From: Arthrobacter yangruifuii
GTDB lineage: Bacteria > Actinomycetota > Actinomycetes > Actinomycetales > Micrococcaceae
Assembly: GCF_009192775.1 (NCBI RefSeq)
Contig: NZ_VTFX01000005.1
Coordinates: forward strand, 310,001-374,000
Length of the DNA: 64,000 nt
Direction: 5' to 3'
Under the pieces are notes generated by a model, which saw nothing but the letters and a program-made list of their open reading frames with translations, had not been told where the DNA came from and did no database searches. Both the position numbers and the translations under genes were made by a program. Position 1 is the stretch's first letter. Every line of letters starts with the position of its first letter. Shown in pieces: positions 46,632-54,408 of this stretch.

Positions 46632-48227
46632 CTAGTTTTCCCAGGGAGCCTTCACGGGGAAGTACTTCTCCAGGAACTCCGTCACCCGCCGGGCCCGTTC
46701 CTCGGCAGGAACCTCCGGGAAGCTTCCGTCATTGAGGCAGAACATGTCCTTGTGGCGTTTGGCCAGCAGCCGGTCCATCAGCTTCAGCCCGGCGTAGCTG
46801 GTGGTGTCCACGTACTTCACTTTCGCCGTCTCCTGCGTCACCGCCCGGCCGGTGAGCAGTGCGTAGTAGTGGTAGAGCGAATTGGTCACGGAGATGTTGT
46901 CCTGGGCGCGGAAGGTGCTCGCTGCAGTGGCGGCGAACTCTTCGGGGAACTCCTCCTCCATCTCCAGCAGGACGCTGCGGCGCAGGGGAGCTGCCGTGTG
47001 TTCCAGGTGGCGGGTGGTCACCCGGCCGAAGCGTTCCCAGAGCAGCCGCCGGTTGACCCGCGCCGCATTTTCAAACCCGCTCCGCTCCGGATCATTGGCG
47101 CCGAGGCCGATCCGGGTGCTGGCCTCGATGAACTTGGTGATCCCGCCGGGGGAGAAGAACATGTCCGGGGCCACCGGACGGCCGAAGAACATGTCGTCAT
47201 TGGAGTACAGGAAGTGCTCGGCCAGTCCCGGGATGTGCTGCAGCTGGGCTTCGACAGCCTGGGAATTATGGGTGGGCAGTACCGACGGGTCCTTGAAGTG
47301 CTCCGCGGCGGGCACAAACGTCACCGACGGGTGCTCGGCAAGCCAGTCAGGACGCGCGGAATCCGAGGCAATGAAGATGCGGCGGATCCACGGCGCGAAC
47401 ATATGCACCGAGCGCAGGGCATACTTGAGCTCGTTGATCTGGCGGAAGCGGGCCTCATGGTCGTCGCCCTCACCCACCACCGCATCCTTCATCCGGGCGG
47501 CGCGGGCGGCCTGGAATTCGGCGGAGCTGCCGTCCACCCAGGAGAACACCAGATCGATGTCGAACCGGATGTCCGTGGCGTGGTCGGCAAACATGTTCTC
47601 GATGGTCGGCCAGAGCAGGCCGTGCTTTTCCACGGTTCCCCGCACCACTTCCGCGGCCGGGAGGGTACGCCGGGTGAGGGAGTTCTCGACCGGCAGCGTG
47701 ATGCTGTCCCCTTCCAGGTCCCAGAGTTCAATCTGCACACCGGCGGCAACGGATATCAGCAGGTTGGTGCCGGTGAACGCCCGCGGCCGGTACACCCGGA
47801 TGATCCGCGCCCTGTCGTTGGATGTGAGGCTGCCGTCTGCAATCAGCAGGGTCCGGCTCTTTTTGATGTCTACCGCGCGGGAGTAGAACGGCTCGGTTTG
47901 GCAGGCCTCAACCATTGCCTTCCGCAACTCCTGGCGCCTCCGGAGGTCGACGGCGATCACCGGGCGCTGATCATTGCCGCGCACCAGAAGGTAGGGCACG
48001 CCGGCGTCGTCCAGGACCCGGCGGATGAAGAGCAGGTCCTCCACCATGGCCTCGTGCGGAGTCAGCCCGGTATCCATAAGGCTCAGGCGTCCGCGCACCA
48101 GGGCCACATCGGGCTGCTGCTCCACCCGGTGGAGGGCAGCGGGGGAAGCGGCCTGCAGCGCCGCCGGCTCGAGTTCCGGTTCCGGAGCTCCGAAATAGAC
48201 ATCATGGACAGCGGATGTATCGGTAAT
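46632..48227 (-). CDS. Stealth-family capsular-polysaccharide phosphotransferase
   Basis: 531 residues from the chosen start. Stealth regions are clear: CR1 DIDLVFSWVDGSS, CR2 FRQINELKYALRSVHMFAPWIRRIFIASD (in short RQINELKYALRSVHMFAPW), CR3 THNSQAVEAQLQHIPGLAEHFLYSNDDMFFGRP (in short YSNDDMFFGRP), and CR4 near the end. These enzymes transfer sugar-1-phosphates in capsule or teichoic-like polymer synthesis. No ATG or GTG suits the start. AGGAGG lies 5 bases before an in-frame ATT at 48227, so ATT is proposed. The alternative GTG at 48125 has no ribosome-binding site. No other capsule genes are adjacent. Confidence 0.85.
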   Translation of the reverse strand: MTDTSAVHDVYFGAPEPELEPAALQAASPAALHRVEQQPDVALVRGRLSLMDTGLTPHEAMVEDLLFIRRVLDDAGVPYLLVRGNDQRPVIAVDLRRRQELRKAMVEACQTEPFYSRAVDIKKSRTLLIADGSLTSNDRARIIRVYRPRAFTGTNLLISVAAGVQIELWDLEGDSITLPVENSLTRRTLPAAEVVRGTVEKHGLLWPTIENMFADHATDIRFDIDLVFSWVDGSSAEFQAARAARMKDAVVGEGDDHEARFRQINELKYALRSVHMFAPWIRRIFIASDSARPDWLAEHPSVTFVPAAEHFKDPSVLPTHNSQAVEAQLQHIPGLAEHFLYSNDDMFFGRPVAPDMFFSPGGITKFIEASTRIGLGANDPERSGFENAARVNRRLLWERFGRVTTRHLEHTAAPLRRSVLLEMEEEFPEEFAATAASTFRAQDNISVTNSLYHYYALLTGRAVTQETAKVKYVDTTSYAGLKLMDRLLAKRHKDMFCLNDGSFPEVPAEERARRVTEFLEKYFPVKAPWEN

Positions 48228-48413
48228 GGGAACCTCCTGGGACGGATAGGCGCCGGCAGTGCAGGCGCAGAGTGGAGTGCGGCGCTGCACGGGAACTGCT
48301 GCCGGGAATCCGGCGGGTACTTCGGGATGGGCCGTGGATGGTCCTGGCGCTATGTGCTCACATGCACGCCGCCAGTAGCATGGTGTTCGGACACGGACAT
48401 CGCGGGAGTTGAT

Positions 48414-49112
48414 GTGGGATACCGTAACACCGCCCGACGCAGTACGCCCCGAAACGCTATGCCTCGTAGCATTAGCGTCCGTAACACTGGCTTGATTGCG
48501 GCAGCACTTCTCCTCTCCACCGTACCCTCCTGTGCTGCCCCGCAGCAGGAGGAGGGCCGGACGTCGTCGGCGCCGCAATGGTCCAGCTATACGACGGCGG
48601 ACGGCAGCCTGCGCTTCGAGCACCCGCCGGAGTGGGATGTTCGGGAGCTGCCGGCTCTTGCCAATGACCCGGCGGGCGGGGTGTCCCTGCAGGTGGTCGA
48701 CGCCGGCGGACGCGTGTTGGCCGAGCTGGATACGGGCATCATCACCGACCTGAGCTGCACCGATCCCGCGGAGCCGGCAGCGTACGTGGAGTATGAGAGC
48801 ATTCCGATGCCGGACCTGGATTCGAAACAGGGGTCCGAGCAGCGTTTTGTCTACCGTTCCCTGGGTCCGTCCGGGGGCCGGGCGGCGCAGGCGACCTACG
48901 CCGTGGTGAGCGGTCAGCAGCCGGCTGGCCAGTGCGGACTCTTTGATTTCTTTACTCTGACGGAGTCCAGCGGCGGCCGGTTCGCGGGGGAGTTCGCGGA
49001 CAGTGCGGGTGCATCGCAGGAGGAATACCTTGAAGGGGCTTCCCGGTACCGGGAAACACAGGAATACCGGGATCTTCGAGAGATGCTGACCTCACTGCGC
49101 AACGCGGACTAG
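48414..49112 (+). CDS. Secreted lipoprotein of unknown function
   Basis: 232 residues from GTG 48414 (GGGAG 5 bases upstream); ATG 48459 would give 217. Signal peptide with a hydrophobic core LIAAALLLSTVPSC, where the Cys is a likely lipobox residue though Pro at -2 is atypical. The mature part (YTTADGSLRFEHPPEWDVRELP) looks like a PsbP/PA-type beta domain with a cysteine-containing LSCTDPAEP and QCGLFDFF. Not assigned to a named family. Diverges from the Stealth gene and precedes the DUF6318 array. Confidence 0.72.
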   Translation: MGYRNTARRSTPRNAMPRSISVRNTGLIAAALLLSTVPSCAAPQQEEGRTSSAPQWSSYTTADGSLRFEHPPEWDVRELPALANDPAGGVSLQVVDAGGRVLAELDTGIITDLSCTDPAEPAAYVEYESIPMPDLDSKQGSEQRFVYRSLGPSGGRAAQATYAVVSGQQPAGQCGLFDFFTLTESSGGRFAGEFADSAGASQEEYLEGASRYRETQEYRDLREMLTSLRNAD

Positions 49113-49188: not shown

Positions 49189-49304
49189 GAGCCACGCTGG
49201 AGCCCTGTGGATAAGCCGTTAGGCGCGGCAGCGTCCTGATTACTATGGCGGAACCGACTGCTTGATCCTTTGTCTCGCGGCCCACCCAGCCTTGGGGTTT
49301 TCGA
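49189..49304 (+). repeat. Array upstream repeat, copy A
   Basis: Leader and promoter segment of the first module, about 85% like copies B and C by eye. It contains the conserved TACTAT -10 (49241-49246), 59 bases before the ATG, and ends TTGGGGTTTTCGA just before the start codon. Confidence 0.7.
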
Positions 49305-49964
49305 ATGCGTAGAACTGAAATGCTCCGTCCTCCCGTGCGGTTGAAGCTCGCGACCGCCTCCGTTGCGGTCCCGTTGCTGCTCCTCTCGGCGTGCTCGGGC
49401 GATTCCGGTGATTCCGGAGCTGGGGAGTCGCCTTCGAGTCCGGCTTCCACGGCTGCGGCAACGGTGGGTCCCACTCCCACGCCGAGCGCGACGTACAGAC
49501 CCGCGTCGGCTGAGGGGCCGGCGGAGAACGTTCCGTTGCCGGTGATGCCGGAGGAAGCGAAGGTGCAGTCCAAGGAGGGGCTCGAGGCCTTTGCCCGGTA
49601 CTGGTACGACCTCATCAATTACGGATTCGAGACCGGCGACGTAGATCCGATTAAGGCGATCAGCGGGCCGGAATGCGTTGTTTGCGACAACTTCTACAGG
49701 ATGGTCGCGTCTGGTTATAAGGATGAAGATTGGATCAGCGGTGGGGCCCTGGTCGTTCAAGGCGTCAGTTCGGAATATGTCCTGACGCCCGAAGGTCGCT
49801 ACCAAGTGCTGATCCAAAATGCACAAGAAGCATCGGAATACTATGGTCCCGGGGTCTTTTACGGCACTCGTGAAGGCTATCCGGAGCCGGGAGTGCAGAT
49901 CATCGAAGCGAGATACCGCGCGGATGGTTGGTACGCCGAGAGAGTCGATACGATCAGTGGCTAA
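49305..49964 (+). CDS. DUF6318 family lipoprotein, module A
   Basis: 219 residues. Lipobox signal ...VPLLLLSACSGD, so it is lipid-anchored outside the membrane. A Ser/Thr/Pro/Ala linker (about 30-60) follows, then the conserved AEGPAENVPLPVMPEEAKVQSKEGLEAFARYWYDLINYGFETGD (in short EGLEAFARYWYDLINYGFETG), and KAISGPECVVCDNFY with a likely redox or disulfide CxxC. From about residue 128 the sequence departs from the other copies (RMVASGYKDEDWISGG...) and ends ARYRADGWYAERV. DUF6318 is a family of unknown function. The partner gene after it is truncated. Confidence 0.85.
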   Translation: MRRTEMLRPPVRLKLATASVAVPLLLLSACSGDSGDSGAGESPSSPASTAAATVGPTPTPSATYRPASAEGPAENVPLPVMPEEAKVQSKEGLEAFARYWYDLINYGFETGDVDPIKAISGPECVVCDNFYRMVASGYKDEDWISGGALVVQGVSSEYVLTPEGRYQVLIQNAQEASEYYGPGVFYGTREGYPEPGVQIIEARYRADGWYAERVDTISG

Positions 49965-50097
49965 GACGACATCGCTGGCTCCCCAGCGACCAATCTTTCT
50001 CGGATGCCTAGGTTCACTTGCCGTTGTTTGTGCAACAAGCGGCACGACTGCTAGCCGCAGTCCGGACCACGCTGGTGCCCTGTGGATAAGTCGTTAG
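49957..50097 (+). pseudogene. Truncated partner gene of module A (signal-peptide remnant)
   Basis: A GTG inside the end of DUF6318-A (overlapping its stop, as AGTGGCTAAG) opens a 46-codon frame. It reads MAKTTSLAPQRPIFLGCLGSLAVVCATSG, i.e. a basic n-region and hydrophobic core typical of an exported protein, and then runs directly into the repeat that starts module B (RSPDHAGALWISR). So the partner gene's secretion signal was kept while the rest was lost at the repeat junction. The position matches that of the intact partners in modules B and C. Confidence 0.65.
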
Positions 50098-50560
50098 TCT
50101 CTGCAGCGTCCTGACTACTATGGCCGAACCGGCTGCTTGATCGTGTGTTTCGCGGCCTACCCGACTTTGGGGGTTTTCGAATGCGCAGAAGTTTTATTTC
50201 CCGCCGTCCCGGGTGGTTGAAGCTTGTGGCCGTTATGGCTGCTTTCCCGATGCTGTTCCTGTCGGCGTGCTCGGAGGCGGCGGGGGATCCAGGGCCGGCG
50301 GAGTCGCCTACGGGTGTGAGCTCCTCGCCTACGCCGTCCGAAACGCCGACGCCCACACCGAGCGCTACGTACAAGCCTGCATCGGCTGAGGGGCCGGCGG
50401 AGAACGTTCCGCTGCCGGTGATGCCGGCGGAGGCGAAGGTGCAGTCCAAGGAGGGGCTGGAGGCCTTTGCCCGGTACTGGTACAACCTCATCAATTACGG
50501 ATTCGAGACCGGCGATGTAGAGCCGATTAAGGCGATCAGCGGGCCGGAATGCGCTGTTTG
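50061..50560 (+). repeat. Module 5' conserved block, copy B
   Basis: 500 bases covering the promoter, leader and first about 126 codons of DUF6318-B. The first 135 bases (50061-50195) are identical to 51825-51959 by direct reading; the remainder differs at scattered positions and by a 6-base Thr-Pro insertion in C. Contains TACTAT (50116-50121). Confidence 0.8.
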
Positions 50561-50840
50561 CAAGAACTTTTATCAGATTGTTGGACCCGGCTACAAAAAT
50601 AGCGACTGGATCAAAGGAGGAGAGCTAGTCGTTCGAAGCGTCCATTCTAACTATGTGGTAACACCGGAAGGGCTTTATCAGGTACTGATTCAAAACGTAC
50701 AAGAACCCCTGGAGTACTTTGGTCCCGGCGTCCTCTACGGCGTGCATGAGGGTTATCCAGAGCCTGGAGTTCAGATGATCGAGGCCCGATACACCGCAGA
50801 TGGTTGGTACGCCGAGCACGTTGTAACCATCGAGGGTTAA
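50181..50840 (+). CDS. DUF6318 family lipoprotein, module B
   Basis: 219 residues. Signal FPMLFLSACSEAA, a Pro/Thr-rich linker with TPSETPTPTPSATYK, then conserved EGLEAFARYWYNLINYGFETGDVEPIKAISGPEC. Past GPECAVCKNFY the sequence diverges (QIVGPGYKNSDWIKGGELVVRSVHSNYV, in short GYKNSDWIKGGELV), then DGWYAEHVVTIEG. Start ATG at 50181, with GGGGG 7 bases upstream. 10 bases on begins its partner gene. The diverged C terminus is 60% or so like module A by eye and less like module C. Confidence 0.87.
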   Translation: MRRSFISRRPGWLKLVAVMAAFPMLFLSACSEAAGDPGPAESPTGVSSSPTPSETPTPTPSATYKPASAEGPAENVPLPVMPAEAKVQSKEGLEAFARYWYNLINYGFETGDVEPIKAISGPECAVCKNFYQIVGPGYKNSDWIKGGELVVRSVHSNYVVTPEGLYQVLIQNVQEPLEYFGPGVLYGVHEGYPEPGVQMIEARYTADGWYAEHVVTIEG

Positions 50841-50850
50841 GAAGGCGAGC

Positions 50851-51747
50851 ATGACACGCTGGCAGTCATTTAGTTTCGGGATTATAGGGTCGCTAATGAT
50901 TGCGATGCTGGGGAGTCCGGTTACTGCTATTGCAGTCACAGGCGACGGGGGATTTAGAGATGACAAAGTAATAGCCGGGGCCGCTTTTCACGAGGATCCA
51001 GCCTCAGGAGTTTGGACGCAAATGCCTGTAGGAATTCCAGATAACCTGAGCGGCTATCGTTTTGAGCCGGTTTGTTTTGATGATCTGGCCGGAGATGTGG
51101 AGTGTCTGGCTGCCAACCAAGCCGCGTGCACCGCCGGGGAGGACGGCCGTCTCGTGTTTTGGTTCTCCGGTTTGAAGACAACCGACCCGAGTACCTGGCC
51201 TAAGGTCGGTGAGACCCCGTCGTGCATTTACTCCGAAGAGCCGGTCGATGTCGGGCAGCGGATCCAGCAGCAGATCCTCACCGCATTCCAGGAACGCCCG
51301 ATAGCTGCCGGAAAGGTGGTCCTGCAGCCCAGCCCGCACACCTTGGTCGGGATGGAAACCAACGTCTACATTGACGCCGCCGAGCAGACCTTCGAAATGG
51401 TCTTGCTGGACCAGACCATCAGAATTATTGCCACCCCCACGGAGTTTGAACTGAACTACGGGGACGGGTCGGTGTACGGGCCTACCAGCACCCCGGGAGC
51501 GCCGCTGCATCAGGACCGGTGGGGTGAGCAGACCCAGACCAGCCACCGGTATGCGGCCAGCGGGGATTACCAGGTGGTGGCGACGGTGCACTTCTCCGGA
51601 ACGTACTCGGTGAACGGCGGACCGATGATTCCGATTGACGGGCGGGCAGCCGTGCCTTCCGAGCGCCAGACTCTGCGCGTCTGGCGCGCTGAAACCCGCA
51701 GCGTTGCGGACAACTGCCTGATCAACCCGAGCGGTGTCGGATGCTAG
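50851..51747 (+). CDS. Secreted Cys-rich protein with PKD-like domain, module B
   Basis: 298 residues, not assigned to a named family. N-terminal signal peptide (SFGIIGSLMIAMLGSPVTAIA). Residues about 34-121 are the part that differs from module C in DNA, with CFDDLAGDVECLAANQAACTAG holding three cysteines. Residues 122-298 are the part nearly identical to module C, including TPSCIYSEEP, a PKD-like fold (FELNYGDGSVYGP ... TSHRYAASGDYQVVATVHFSGTYSV, in short HRYAASGDYQVVATVHFSG) and a terminal DNCLINPSGVGC. Six cysteines suggest disulfides outside the cell. GAAGG precedes the ATG. Confidence 0.85.
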   Translation: MTRWQSFSFGIIGSLMIAMLGSPVTAIAVTGDGGFRDDKVIAGAAFHEDPASGVWTQMPVGIPDNLSGYRFEPVCFDDLAGDVECLAANQAACTAGEDGRLVFWFSGLKTTDPSTWPKVGETPSCIYSEEPVDVGQRIQQQILTAFQERPIAAGKVVLQPSPHTLVGMETNVYIDAAEQTFEMVLLDQTIRIIATPTEFELNYGDGSVYGPTSTPGAPLHQDRWGEQTQTSHRYAASGDYQVVATVHFSGTYSVNGGPMIPIDGRAAVPSERQTLRVWRAETRSVADNCLINPSGVGC

Positions 51748-51760
51748 GCAGGCACAAATA
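51214..51760 (+). repeat. Module 3' conserved block, copy B (547 bp)
   Basis: Covers the last 178 codons of the partner gene and 13 bases after it. It aligns without gaps to 52968-53514; I count nine mismatches, seven of them in the last 150 bases. Upstream of this point the two genes encode similar protein but with mostly different codons, so the boundary is abrupt. Confidence 0.85.
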
Positions 51761-51824
51761 CGGAGTAGGACAACGTCGCGGGAGTGGAAGCGGCCGTGCG
51801 CCGTCGTCGGGTTGTCAGCCGTGG

Positions 51825-52330
51825 TCCGGACCACGCTGGTGCCCTGTGGATAAGTCGTTAGTCTCTGCAGCGTCCTGACTACTATGGCCGAACCGGCTGC
51901 TTGATCGTGTGTTTCGCGGCCTACCCGACTTTGGGGGTTTTCGAATGCGCAGAAGTTTTGTTTCCCGCCGTTCCGGGCGGTTGCAGCTTGTGGCCGTCAT
52001 GCTTGCTTTCCCGATGCTGTTCCTGTCGGCGTGCTCGGAGGCGGCGGGGGATCCCGGGCCGGCGGAGTCGCCTACGGGTGGGACCTCCTCGCCGACGCCT
52101 ACTTCCACTCCGACTCCGACGCCCACCCCGAGCGCTACGTACAAGCCTGCATCGGCGGAGGGGCCTGCGGAGAACGTTCCGCTGCCGGTGATGCCGGAGG
52201 AAGCGAAGGTGCAGTCCAAGGAGGGGCTGGAGGCCTTTGCTCGCTACTGGTATGACCTCATCAATTACGGATTCGAGACCGGCGACGTAGAGCCGATTAA
52301 GGCGATCAGTGGCCCGGAATGCGTTGTTTG
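51825..52330 (+). repeat. Module 5' conserved block, copy C
   Basis: 506 bases matching 50061-50560; first 135 bases identical. TACTAT -10 at 51880-51885. Distance between the starts of copies B and C is 1764 bases, the module period. Confidence 0.8.
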
Positions 52331-52610
52331 CGACACTTTCTACCGCACTGTTGATTACGGCTTTGATGAAGCTGGATGGATCCTAGGGGGCAGTATCAAA
52401 GTCGAGGACGCATTCTCGGAGTACATACTCACCTCGGACGGCCGCTATCAGGTACTGGTGCAACAGACTCAAATCCCTACGTCCTACTACGGACCAACTG
52501 GCATCACGGCTAGCGCGGATGGAACGACAGAGCCGGCGGTACAAATGATGGAGGCGCGTTACACCTCCGCGGGTTGGTATGCCGAAGACGTAGTCACTAT
52601 TTGGTCTTGA
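51945..52610 (+). CDS. DUF6318 family lipoprotein, module C
   Basis: 221 residues. Signal FPMLFLSACSEAA, linker TPTSTPTPTPTPSATYK (two residues longer than B), conserved EGLEAFARYWYDLINYGFETGDVEPIKAISGPEC. The C-terminal part from about residue 129 (RTVDYGFDEAGWILGGSIKVEDAF ... VQQTQIPTSYYGPTGI) is the most diverged of the three. Three bases separate its TGA from the next ATG, suggesting coupled translation. Lipid-anchored, function unknown. Confidence 0.87.
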   Translation: MRRSFVSRRSGRLQLVAVMLAFPMLFLSACSEAAGDPGPAESPTGGTSSPTPTSTPTPTPTPSATYKPASAEGPAENVPLPVMPEEAKVQSKEGLEAFARYWYDLINYGFETGDVEPIKAISGPECVVCDTFYRTVDYGFDEAGWILGGSIKVEDAFSEYILTSDGRYQVLVQQTQIPTSYYGPTGITASADGTTEPAVQMMEARYTSAGWYAEDVVTIWS

Positions 52611-52613
52611 ACA

Positions 52614-53501
52614 ATGAGAATCCGCAAGGTGCTAATCGGTGTGAGCGTTCTGATGACTATTCTGACGGGAGCATCATGGGCCGCTGCAGATGACGGCTTT
52701 CCCCCTGGCTTCTACGAAGACAAGATCCGAGCAGGAGGTTACACGCGGGACCCGGCGACTGGGGCTTGGACACAAATGCCTGTCGGAATTCCCGACGACC
52801 CTTTTGGATACCGCTTTGAACCGGTCTGTTTTGACGACCTCGCAGGAAACGTCGAATGCCTCGCAGCTAACCAGGCGGCCTGCACGGCTGGCGAGGACGG
52901 GAGGTTGGTGTTTTGGTACCGAGGTTTGAAGACTCGGGACTCCGCGTTGTGGGAAAAGGTCAGCGAAACCCCGTCGTGCATTTACTCGGAAGAGCCGGTC
53001 GATGTCGGGCAGCGGATCCAGCAGCAGATCCTCACCGCATTCCAGGAACGCCCGATAGCTGCCGGAAAGGTGGTCCTGCAGCCCAGCCCGCATACCTTGG
53101 TCGGGATGGAAACCAACGTCTACATTGACGCCGCCGAGCAGACCTTCGAAATGGTCTTGCTGGACCAGACCATCAGAATTATTGCCACCCCCACGGAGTT
53201 TGAACTGAACTACGGGGACGGGTCGGTGTACGGGCCTACCAGCACCCCGGGAGCGCCGCTGCATCAGGACCGGTGGGGTGAGCAGACCCAGACCAGCCAC
53301 CGGTATGCGGCCAGCGGGGATTACCAGGTGGTGGCGACGGTGCACTTCTCCGGAACGTACTCGGTGAACGGTGGGCCGATGATTCCGATTGACGGGCGGG
53401 CAGCTGTGCCTTCCGAGCCCCAGACTCTGCGCGTCTGGCGTGCTGAAACCCGTAGCGTTGCGGACAACTGCCTGATCAACCCGGGCGGTGTCGGATGCTA
53501 G
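52614..53501 (+). CDS. Secreted Cys-rich protein with PKD-like domain, module C
   Basis: 295 residues. Signal peptide VLIGVSVLMTILTGASWAAA with an AxA-type cleavage site. Residues 24-118 correspond to module B only at protein level (same Cys positions: CFDDLAGNVECLAANQAACTAG), while residues 119-295 are almost the same as B. The final codon TGC-TAG overlaps an ATG that opens a short lipoprotein-like frame. It is secreted; the PKD-like fold suggests protein or polysaccharide binding. Confidence 0.85.
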   Translation: MRIRKVLIGVSVLMTILTGASWAAADDGFPPGFYEDKIRAGGYTRDPATGAWTQMPVGIPDDPFGYRFEPVCFDDLAGNVECLAANQAACTAGEDGRLVFWYRGLKTRDSALWEKVSETPSCIYSEEPVDVGQRIQQQILTAFQERPIAAGKVVLQPSPHTLVGMETNVYIDAAEQTFEMVLLDQTIRIIATPTEFELNYGDGSVYGPTSTPGAPLHQDRWGEQTQTSHRYAASGDYQVVATVHFSGTYSVNGGPMIPIDGRAAVPSEPQTLRVWRAETRSVADNCLINPGGVGC

Positions 53502-53514
53502 GCAGGCACAAATA
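52968..53514 (+). repeat. Module 3' conserved block, copy C (547 bp)
   Basis: Partner of 51214-51760, same length, ungapped, nine mismatches by eye. After position 53514 the two copies part (B: CGGAGTAGG, C: TCTGGCGAG), marking the right end of the repeat. Confidence 0.85.
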
Positions 53515-53617
53515 TCTGGCGAGTCCCGCCTCGATAATGTTGCTCGGGGCAGGACTCGTAGGCTGCTCCCAAACGCCCGGCCTCCGCAGGGCGGACCCAA
53601 CAAATCACAGCTGTTAG
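53495..53617 (+). CDS. Short lipoprotein-signal ORF, probably truncated
   Basis: 40 codons beginning at an ATG that overlaps the partner gene's stop (ATGCTAG). The product has a basic n-region (MLGRHKYLAS), a hydrophobic core (SIMLLGAGL) and a lipobox LVGC, then only QTPGLRRADPTNHSC before a stop. It looks like a lipoprotein gene cut short, ending at the convergent MSMEG_6728-type gene. The same ATG exists at 51741 in module B but its frame changes after eight codons. Confidence 0.45.
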   Translation: MLGRHKYLASPASIMLLGAGLVGCSQTPGLRRADPTNHSC

Positions 53618-54408
53618 ACGGACTCCGGCCGCGGCACCGCAAACAGCGTCCGGGGATCCTGCAGCACCGCCGGATAGGCGAACGCCGATCGCGGAATGCT
53701 CCCGGAAAGCTTCACCTGCCGCATCGCCGTATCGTTTGTCAGTTCCACCGGGCCCACACGGCCCAGCAGCAGCCGGGTCCGGTCAGCCGGCGAAAGAACC
53801 GCCACGCGGTCGCCGTCGTCCATGTCCTCCAGCAGACGCACCAGCTGCCGGCCGCGTTTGCCCGCAATCGGAGTGCCCTTGGCAGAGCGCATCGGCAGCG
53901 CAATCGCGGCAGCATCGCCGTCGGGAACAGCACGCGCCACCCACAATGCCTCCCCGGGAGCCGGATCCATTGGATCGGGAATGTCCGCAGGGGAGGGCCA
54001 GACATAGGGAAGGCCGCCGTCGGTATCCGGAAACAGGGGACCGTAAACCTCCGGAGACTTTTCAATCAGGTTCGAGCGGTGGCTGCGGTGCAGATCCTCG
54101 TCCCCGATCCAGGGCGGAAGCTCGACGCCGCCTTCCGCAGCCTCCGGGGCGAACTCCAGGATCTGTTCCCGCACCGTATCGGCATGTCCGCGGGCAATCC
54201 ATTCGTCCGTCATGGCCAGACCGTACGTGGTGAGCGCAGGGACAAAGCCCTTCCACATCATCAGGGCGGGGTGGTGCTGCCAGCCGTAATCGGGCACCAC
54301 CAGTCCGCGCAGGAGCTGCAGGGTTTCCACCCGCTGTTTACCGAGCCGCGCCTGGTCCAGGACAGCGGCGCTGCGGGCGAACTCCGGATACGGAAGGAAG
54401 GTCTGCAC
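53614..54408 (-). CDS. MSMEG_6728 family protein (DNA-glycosylase-like)
   Basis: 264 residues. TFLPYPEFARSAAVLDQARLGKQRVETLQLLRGLV (in short LGKQRVETLQLLRGL), GWQHHPALMMWKGFVPALTTYGLAM (in short GWQHHPALMMWKG) and IARGHADTVREQI match the MSMEG_6728-type family, distantly related to T4 endonuclease V-like pyrimidine-dimer glycosylases. A C-terminal PPWIGDEDLHRSHRSNLI segment follows. No activity is established. It marks the right border of the DUF6318 array. Confidence 0.85.
   Translation of the reverse strand: MQTFLPYPEFARSAAVLDQARLGKQRVETLQLLRGLVVPDYGWQHHPALMMWKGFVPALTTYGLAMTDEWIARGHADTVREQILEFAPEAAEGGVELPPWIGDEDLHRSHRSNLIEKSPEVYGPLFPDTDGGLPYVWPSPADIPDPMDPAPGEALWVARAVPDGDAAAIALPMRSAKGTPIAGKRGRQLVRLLEDMDDGDRVAVLSPADRTRLLLGRVGPVELTNDTAMRQVKLSGSIPRSAFAYPAVLQDPRTLFAVPRPESV

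Follow-up and report, generated by a model that had tools for sequence, protein, structure and literature searches.

The 64,000-nucleotide stretch of Arthrobacter yangruifuii DNA analyzed here (contig NZ_VTFX01000005.1, positions 310,001 to 374,000; hereafter the window) contains a tandem array in which a gene for a DUF6318 lipoprotein (LIPO) is followed by a gene for a secreted partner with a C-terminal PKD domain (PK). At this locus, a block of about 500–900 bases, made up of the end of LIPO and the start of PK, has been exchanged as a unit between species of Arthrobacter and related soil bacteria while the flanks stayed. This cassette joins the C-terminal half of LIPO (LC) to the PK signal peptide and the first ~35 mature residues of PK (PNa), and it is replaced in one piece, the outcome expected of homologous recombination with conserved sequence on both sides; the conserved flank on the left is the LIPO leader and N-terminal half, and that on the right is the PKD half of PK. 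Old cassette alleles circulate inside the genus, out of step with the species tree.

The exchange is visible when sister species are compared in 150-bp bins over 12–14 kb (genomes are given as G numbers; the collections compared hold one genome per species). G012 and G027 are 92–100% identical over ~13 kb except for six bins (~0.9 kb) at 43–83% in the predicted middle; the synonymous divergence (dS) of their Stealth gene is 0.01, and the proportion of synonymous differences (pS) in the LIPO C-half is 0.88. G009 and G026 differ likewise in four bins (~0.6 kb) at 48–68% on a background of 89–100%, and G015 and G028, which have the same cassette, show no hole (94–100%). G006, G018, and G024 combine PK C-halves that are alike (76–100%) with three different cassettes. 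The mirror case is provided by G016 and G008, which have the cassette in common (LIPO C-half 87–98%, first 45 PK residues 88–92%) downstream of leaders that are 69–81% identical. The right border varies, falling at PK residue ~45–60 in G009/G026 and in G013, at ~120 in the window and in G012/G027, and inside the PKD half in G001b/G003b; LC plus PNa is the core that all observed exchanges have in common. A second dip, to 75–85% on the 89–100% background, is present between G009 and G026 (loci L043 and L062) in the C-half of a downstream LIPO that has no PK, and such orphan LIPOs may therefore exchange cassettes too.

In the window, the array is bounded by a Stealth gene (46632–48236, minus strand) and a PF03013 gene (53614–54408, minus strand), with the open reading frame (ORF) LP48 also between them, and consists of three head-to-tail modules, A, B, and C, each opening with a LIPO gene:

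49305–49964, plus strand: module A LIPO, an intact orphan DUF6318 lipoprotein ORF with no PK partner (DUF6318 121 bits; lipobox LLLSAC)
49957–50052, plus strand: module A stub of a lost PK gene, a signal-peptide-like frame from the GTG at 49957, by translation
50053–50565, plus strand: module B 5′ arm, leader and LIPO N-half, mostly 92–100% identical to 51817–52330
50181–50840, plus strand: module B LIPO, a DUF6318 lipoprotein, NTF2-like by homology to the modeled C copy
50566–51204, plus strand: module B cassette, comprising the LIPO C-half, the PK signal peptide, the N-terminal arm, and the next ~60 PK residues
50851–51747, plus strand: module B PK, secreted, with a C-terminal PKD domain (fold by homology to C)
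51205–51760, plus strand: module B 3′ arm, the PK C-half including the PKD domain
51817–52330, plus strand: module C 5′ arm, leader and LIPO N-half, from the repeat and the identity profile
51945–52610, plus strand: module C LIPO, a DUF6318 lipoprotein, NTF2-like (Pfam; AlphaFold mean predicted local distance difference test score, pLDDT, 87)
52331–52958, plus strand: module C cassette, from the identity profile; its C-half class is a singleton within the genus
52614–53501, plus strand: module C PK, with a PKD fold at residues 147–276 and low confidence at residues 19–40 (flexible arm)
52959–53514, plus strand: module C 3′ arm, the PK C-half, from the identity profile

The LIPO N-half in the module B 5′ arm contains the signal peptide, a Thr/Pro linker, and a conserved helix, as far as a CxxC motif. 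LIPO and PK are separated by 10 bp in module B and 3 bp in module C. The module A LIPO has a C-half of the same class as that of module B, and the PK stub behind it runs into the module B leader repeat, which starts at 50053. The nearest relatives found for the module C cassette are metagenome proteins, P0097 for the LIPO C-half (62%) and P0002 for the PK arm (60%).

A 50-bp identity profile of module B against module C gives arms that are mostly 92–100% identical, with 96–100% over 51225–51724 in the 3′ arm, on either side of a middle at 34–78%. The diverged middle extends from about the CxxC motif to the stop codon of LIPO and continues into PK as far as residue ~120. By Nei-Gojobori counts, dS is 0.25 in the LIPO arm and 0.06 in the PK arm, and pS in the middle is 0.73–0.85. 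With dS low in the arms and the middle saturated, the arms stem from a recent event of duplication or conversion, and the middle belongs to another, old allele. An origin of the diverged middle by rapid point mutation or by positive selection was ruled out, as synonymous sites are saturated there and unsaturated in the arms; in the one same-class pair checked closely, G016/G008, LC has a dS of 0.29 and a nonsynonymous divergence (dN) of 0.045, so that dN is well below dS. An earlier sequence-only reading had described conserved arms around a diverged middle in modules B and C, which the profile and the substitution counts bear out. Its assignment of the variable parts to the LIPO C-terminal and PK N-terminal portions was correct as to the adjacent pair and too broad on the PK side, where the piece that is always exchanged is the signal peptide plus ~35 residues. 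It had also called module A truncated; the LIPO of that module is intact, and of its PK a stub is left.

The histories of the segments were compared by approximately unbiased (AU) tests, in which the data of each segment were set against the tree of every segment in four data sets from two genera. In addition to LC and PNa (the arm alone in the protein set), the segments were the LIPO N-half (LN), the next ~60 PK residues (PNb), and the PKD half (PC). In the 12-genome clade of the window, the flank tree is compatible with the data of LN (p = 0.22), PNb (p = 0.14), and PC (p = 0.28) and is rejected by those of LC and PNa (p = 8e-7 and 2e-10); PNa accepts the LC tree (p = 0.27) and rejects the LN, PNb, and PC trees. 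The long flank alignment rejects all other trees, those of LN and PC least (log-likelihood difference, dL, 36 and 39 vs 423–849). In a second clade set, with module C and the second unit of G013 substituted, the flank tree holds for LN and PC (p = 0.40 and 0.27) and fails for PNb (p = 0.023), and PNa accepts the LC tree (p = 0.41) and rejects the flank tree (p = 0.007). In the 27-genome protein set, nearly all segments reject every other tree; LN retains the flank tree (p = 0.051), and the best alternative for the LC data is the PNa tree (dL 161 vs 282–436). The flank tree is rejected by the PK-arm data in all four sets. By these tests, the adjacent variable parts share, imperfectly, a history unlike that of the flanks, and LC and PNa are the closest pair with imperfect congruence.

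In partial Mantel tests given flank distance, LC and PNa correlate with r = 0.69 in 14 clade units and r = 0.60 in 29 syntenic units (p = 0.0005 each); for the abutting PNa and PNb, r is 0.21 in the clade units and 0.61 in the 29 units. The Mantel LN-LC value is inflated because LN (ORF residues 51–151) overlaps the left border there, and the tree tests use a narrower LN.

The pattern is replicated in a second, independent genus, g31, from which 60 loci were taken among the matches listed with a position. No flank gene of the window turned up in these 60 loci, and the commonest flank orthologues in g31 are other genes. G397 and G368 are 98% identical in the flank genes and 98–100% in the LIPO leader and the start of the N-half, fall to 24–53% in the LIPO C-half and 31–44% over the first ~60 PK residues, and are 100% identical thereafter to the PK end. 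G374 and G365 present a similar picture, at 89–100% past the cassette with PK bins at 28–33% inside it. Conversely, G408 and G305 have the cassette in common (84–100%) with two leader bins at 51–53%, and G218 and G347 share a cassette behind dissimilar leaders. Tree and Mantel tests used the 40 of the 60 loci with both flank orthologues. Here PNa accepts the LC tree only (p = 0.08; dL 20 vs 557–663), and the partial Mantel correlation given the flanks is 0.71 for LC-PNa (p = 0.0005) and 0.28 for PNa-PNb. Over all 60 loci, arm identity is at least 0.60 in 34 pairs, and LC identity is at least 0.55 in all 34 of these (base rate 169/1770). At 50% identity, LC falls into 12 classes in each genus (34 and 60 units). 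No exchange between the two genera was seen: there is no common class, and the best LC identity in 2040 comparisons is 0.38. Across the family, PK is present in 363 of the 395 Micrococcaceae genomes sampled and in 31 of 32 genera.

The sequence-only reading had proposed that the variable halves co-segregate, and the PK-arm data accept the LC tree in three of the four sets (p = 0.27, 0.41, and 0.08); in the other DUF6318-PKD pairs of g31, LC and the arm correlate with r = 0.71. Orthologous copies uniformly diverged along their length, which would have spoken against a cassette, are not what the relatives carry, the divergence between G012 and G027 being confined to six bins. The idea of a cassette itself survived; the tandem array proved unnecessary to it, and the exchange runs between species. 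Array shuffling as the required engine was ruled out, because g31 shows exchange with one pair per fetched locus; shuffling inside arrays may be an additional route.

Both DUF6318 and PK are present in 29 of 29 genomes of the genus (that of the window and 28 others), and 32 loci from the 28 relatives were mapped. The usual syntenic order within the fetched stretch is catalase, Stealth, LP48, array, PF03013, GNAT. The array takes the form LIPO-PK at 14 loci (one with an extra PK fragment), LIPO-PK-LIPO at 10, and LIPO-PK-LIPO-PK-LIPO in G013. The ORF census of the genus gives 69 LIPO and 38 PK, 34 of the latter full length. A LIPO lies directly upstream of all 34 full-length PKs, so that none in this genus is without one; 34 LIPO-PK units were analyzed, one of them (G014c) with an out-of-frame PK end, and the frameshifted G014b locus was excluded. 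Once the five ORFs of G014b and one fragment of 127 residues are set aside, the LIPOs divide into 34 paired ones and 29 orphans. Some orphan C-halves are close to a paired LIPO of another species (G001a_L6/G014a_L1, 0.95; G003b_L2/G021_L1, 0.91; the G003b_L2 orphan adjoins a PK fragment), and for 15 of the 29 the best paired foreign identity is 0.30–0.57. In nine LIPO pairs (seven orphan-orphan and two orphan-paired), dN is below dS, with dN/dS of about 0.05–0.5. Spare copies of a candidate immunity gene with no lone partner, as an immunity-type system would have, are found in this genus and not in the fetched g31 loci. At two loci the PK has decayed and the LIPO is kept. That a LIPO can outlast the loss of its PK suits a receptor or immunity role and also a cassette reservoir.

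The LIPO proteins match DUF6318 (PF19843) with 121.4 (A), 116.1 (B), and 123.9 bits (C) at a gathering threshold of 23.8, and Pfam assigns this family no function. Lipid anchoring is predicted from the lipobox that follows the signal peptide (LLLSAC in A, LFLSAC in B and C). In the structure model, most of the LIPO domain can be matched to NTF2-like domains of solved structure, and the swapped half contains the whole β-sheet of the fold. For the PKs of modules B and C, PF00801 (PKD) scores 13.8 bits, under the 23.5-bit threshold; the PKD fold of the C-terminal domain is supported by the model of the module C protein, in which the swapped N-terminal arm is flexible and the PKD domain is the conserved part. 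Sequence searches of the PDB with the two proteins returned only three and one matches, at E 0.5–0.9 and none meaningful, and NCBIfam gave for LIPO matches far under the cut-off, over the signal-peptide/linker stretch only, and none for PK. PADLOC anti-phage defense models had 0 matches for five proteins. For PK, no toxin domain was matched in Pfam or PADLOC, with residues 41–145 lacking a structure model of their own. No histidine kinase or pheromone gene was found among the eight Pfam-scanned proteins (three LIPOs, two PKs, and three neighbors). A scan of the array yielded no Rfam match, no sigma-70-like promoter, and terminator-like sites at chance level only. NTF2-like folds commonly hold small molecules in the concavity of the β-sheet. 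ARC6 and PARC6 offer a possible analogy for peptide binding. Complexes are formed by these two proteins with PDV2 and PDV1, and a crystal structure of ARC6-PDV2 exists (PMC5877594).

We favor the interpretation that this is a polymorphic specificity locus, like agrBDC or comQXP, that probably encodes a cognate surface pair. Recombination is near certain, and functional coupling of the two variable parts is likely. The lipid-anchored NTF2-like domain of LIPO would bind its cognate PK at the flexible N-terminal arm of the latter, and the two halves of the interface would be swapped together for that reason; we lean, if only slightly, toward such direct binding. The conserved LIPO linker and PKD domain would do common work at the cell surface. 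Balancing (rare-allele) selection may keep the diversity of alleles, because the pair would decide between self and other, by kin recognition or by protection from a foreign PK. Such a self/non-self or immunity-like role is a tentative proposal, less likely than not; the intact orphan LIPOs, the absence of a full-length PK standing alone in the genus, and the two loci with decayed PK are in keeping with LIPO acting in the manner of an immunity protein or a receptor. A wider version, in which the locus is a family-wide allorecognition-like system of the Micrococcaceae with the NTF2-like receptor sheet and the PKD ligand arm as an orthogonal lock and key, is doubtful; there, a rare-allele advantage would keep the diversity, a single recombination would re-key the back-to-back interface halves, and orphan receptors in arrays would broaden the recognition or resistance of a strain.

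Several observations weigh against a coupled recognition pair. Linkage alone could yield co-inheritance, since the segments are neighbors and breakpoints are disfavored inside diverged DNA. The LC data are incompatible with the PNa tree in every AU set; in the set of 27 genomes, PNa for its part rejects the LC tree (p = 0.008; LC is still the best alternative, dL 49 vs 78–133) and PC rejects the flank tree. In the 29 syntenic units, LC-PNb (0.60) and PNa-PNb match LC-PNa in strength. LC and the arm also part in individual pairs (G026_L1/G000_L2, LC 0.33 and arm 0.60; G020/G012, LC 0.54 and arm 0.31), and in g31 the converse does not hold, an arm identity below 0.5 being seen in 116 of the 169 pairs whose LC identity is 0.55 or more. 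In g31 the flank tree fails for LN (p = 1e-42) and for PC (p = 0.007) but is still the best alternative of both (dL 118 and 55, with >1200 for the trees of LC and PNa); recombination thus reaches the outer arms as well, to a smaller extent. All 60 g31 loci have exactly one LIPO followed by one PK and no orphan. LIPO fragments also occur in the genus of the window (four short ORFs, three of them in the frameshifted G014b). Finally, no toxin, enzyme, or signaling domain was found, and PKD is generic.

Some of these points would be accommodated by passive linkage, in which a neutral or weakly selected hotspot holds two unrelated fast-evolving neighbors: adjacency, the suppression of breakpoints inside diverged DNA, and the incomplete congruence of the LC and arm trees are all compatible with it. 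We regard it as very unlikely, because ancient, saturated alleles out of step with the species are hard to keep without balancing selection, the pattern recurs in two genera with different neighborhoods, and the history of the abutting PNb differs, in g31 as in the clade. A diversification of ligand binding, with the NTF2-like half of LIPO binding nutrients or signals, PK as an accessory, and the cassette altering the ligand range instead of the specificity of the pair, would draw on the entire sheet lying in the swapped half and on the small-molecule binding common in the NTF2-like concavity; it leaves unexplained why the PK arm is co-swapped while the abutting PK sequence often stays, and seems very improbable.

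If LIPO were instead a surface immunity lipoprotein against an antagonistic PK, with orphans guarding against foreign PKs in the manner of the tandem tipC or esaG genes of firmicutes, the excess of LIPO over PK, the lack of a full-length PK without LIPO, and the orphans that match paired LIPOs of other species would follow, and tandem tipC lipoprotein genes recombine via 5′ and 3′ blocks (PMC9484751). PK, however, has a Sec-type signal and varies at its N terminus while its C-terminal PKD domain is conserved, whereas polymorphic toxins are built the other way round; no toxin domain was matched in Pfam or PADLOC, about half of the orphans (15/29) have no close paired match, and the fetched g31 loci consist of a single pair each instead of an array. 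We therefore consider this quite unlikely. Surface variation driven by phages or predators, in which phages use an exposed LIPO-PK complex and the cassette is exchanged for escape with its parts co-swapped to keep binding, is likewise unlikely: the locus is near-universal in the Micrococcaceae sampled, hypervariable, and exposed according to its signals, sister species differ, and no toxin domain was found, but 29 full-length orphan LIPOs kept without PK, with dN/dS of about 0.05–0.5 in the nine pairs compared, are not what it predicts.

The preferred interpretation, a specificity locus, has genetic counterparts. In Staphylococcus aureus, the agrBDC variable block covers adjacent, mutually recognizing genes, is in internal linkage disequilibrium and unlinked to agrA and the flanks, and switches by rare recombination (PMC8768832). 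The present block likewise spans adjacent genes; pair specificity has been shown for agr and is a prediction here, and the genes here encode a surface lipoprotein and a secreted PKD protein, not a histidine kinase, a peptidase, and a pheromone. The comQXP pherotypes of Bacillus form divergent allele groups on a near-identical housekeeping background, with comQ trees incongruent with gyrA (PMC4408185); the allele groups resemble those seen here, and unlike that locus, with its peptide-signal/kinase quorum sensing, no such components were found among the scanned proteins. The tandem esaG and tipC paralogues of type VII secretion systems (T7SS) have conserved 5′ and 3′ blocks around a variable middle and recombine via the blocks, and TipC has a predicted lipoprotein signal and faces outward (PMC9484751). 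The LIPO arrays are similarly tandem with conserved blocks around a variable middle; the variation of esaG/tipC is in one gene, whereas the block here spans two, and no T7SS-type toxin was seen. VARTIG is a surface-domain module of the Thermococcales that is hypervariable and passes between species, and functions in conflict or in self/non-self discrimination have been proposed for it; it differs in being a large archaeal Ig protein with a variable C-terminal domain, and the part of the account consulted describes no two-gene cassette (PMC8416519). By analogy, then, the genetics match agrBDC and comQXP and, for the arrays, tipC/esaG; the proteins do not.

A two-gene exchange block is a pattern otherwise met where two proteins must match, and the present cassette, which clearly covers two genes, belongs neither to the classical quorum-sensing systems nor to the toxin-immunity ones. 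It offers a first functional lead for DUF6318 and its PK partner; DUF6318 was not mentioned in the literature searched, and none of the titles listed by targeted searches gave an account of the locus, most subscription papers being outside their reach. Were the locus a recognition system, the 12 natural classes per genus would form a ready panel for orthogonal binding tests and provide a handle on how soil actinobacteria distinguish kin from stranger.

Further observations concern the loci and their neighbors. A second DUF6318 site has seven LIPOs in G001a (L033), the most seen, and five in G003a (L036), each with one PK; the paired LIPO C-halves of the two are identical as proteins, with leader and N-half DNA at 76–98%. 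In G014b (L049), LIPO, PK, and the Stealth, LP48, and PF03013 matches are split across frames, as if decaying or poorly sequenced. G030, of genus g3 (L070, L071), has 10 DUF6318 matches and one weaker PK match (E 1e-19) in a genome of ~2 Mb. The surroundings of the pair in G397 and G368 (L119, L128) are mostly 91–100% identical, with another stretch at 76–85% upstream of the pair, 2.5–3.1 kb in. The gene at 46632–48236, which adjoins the array and is syntenic in most of the genus, has all four Stealth regions, CR1–CR4. LP48 (48462–49109) is a lipoprotein-like ORF with no Pfam match; its DNA identity in the clade is 62–100% (11 of 12 genomes), and it is far more variable than the nearby catalase, Stealth, and PF03013 genes.

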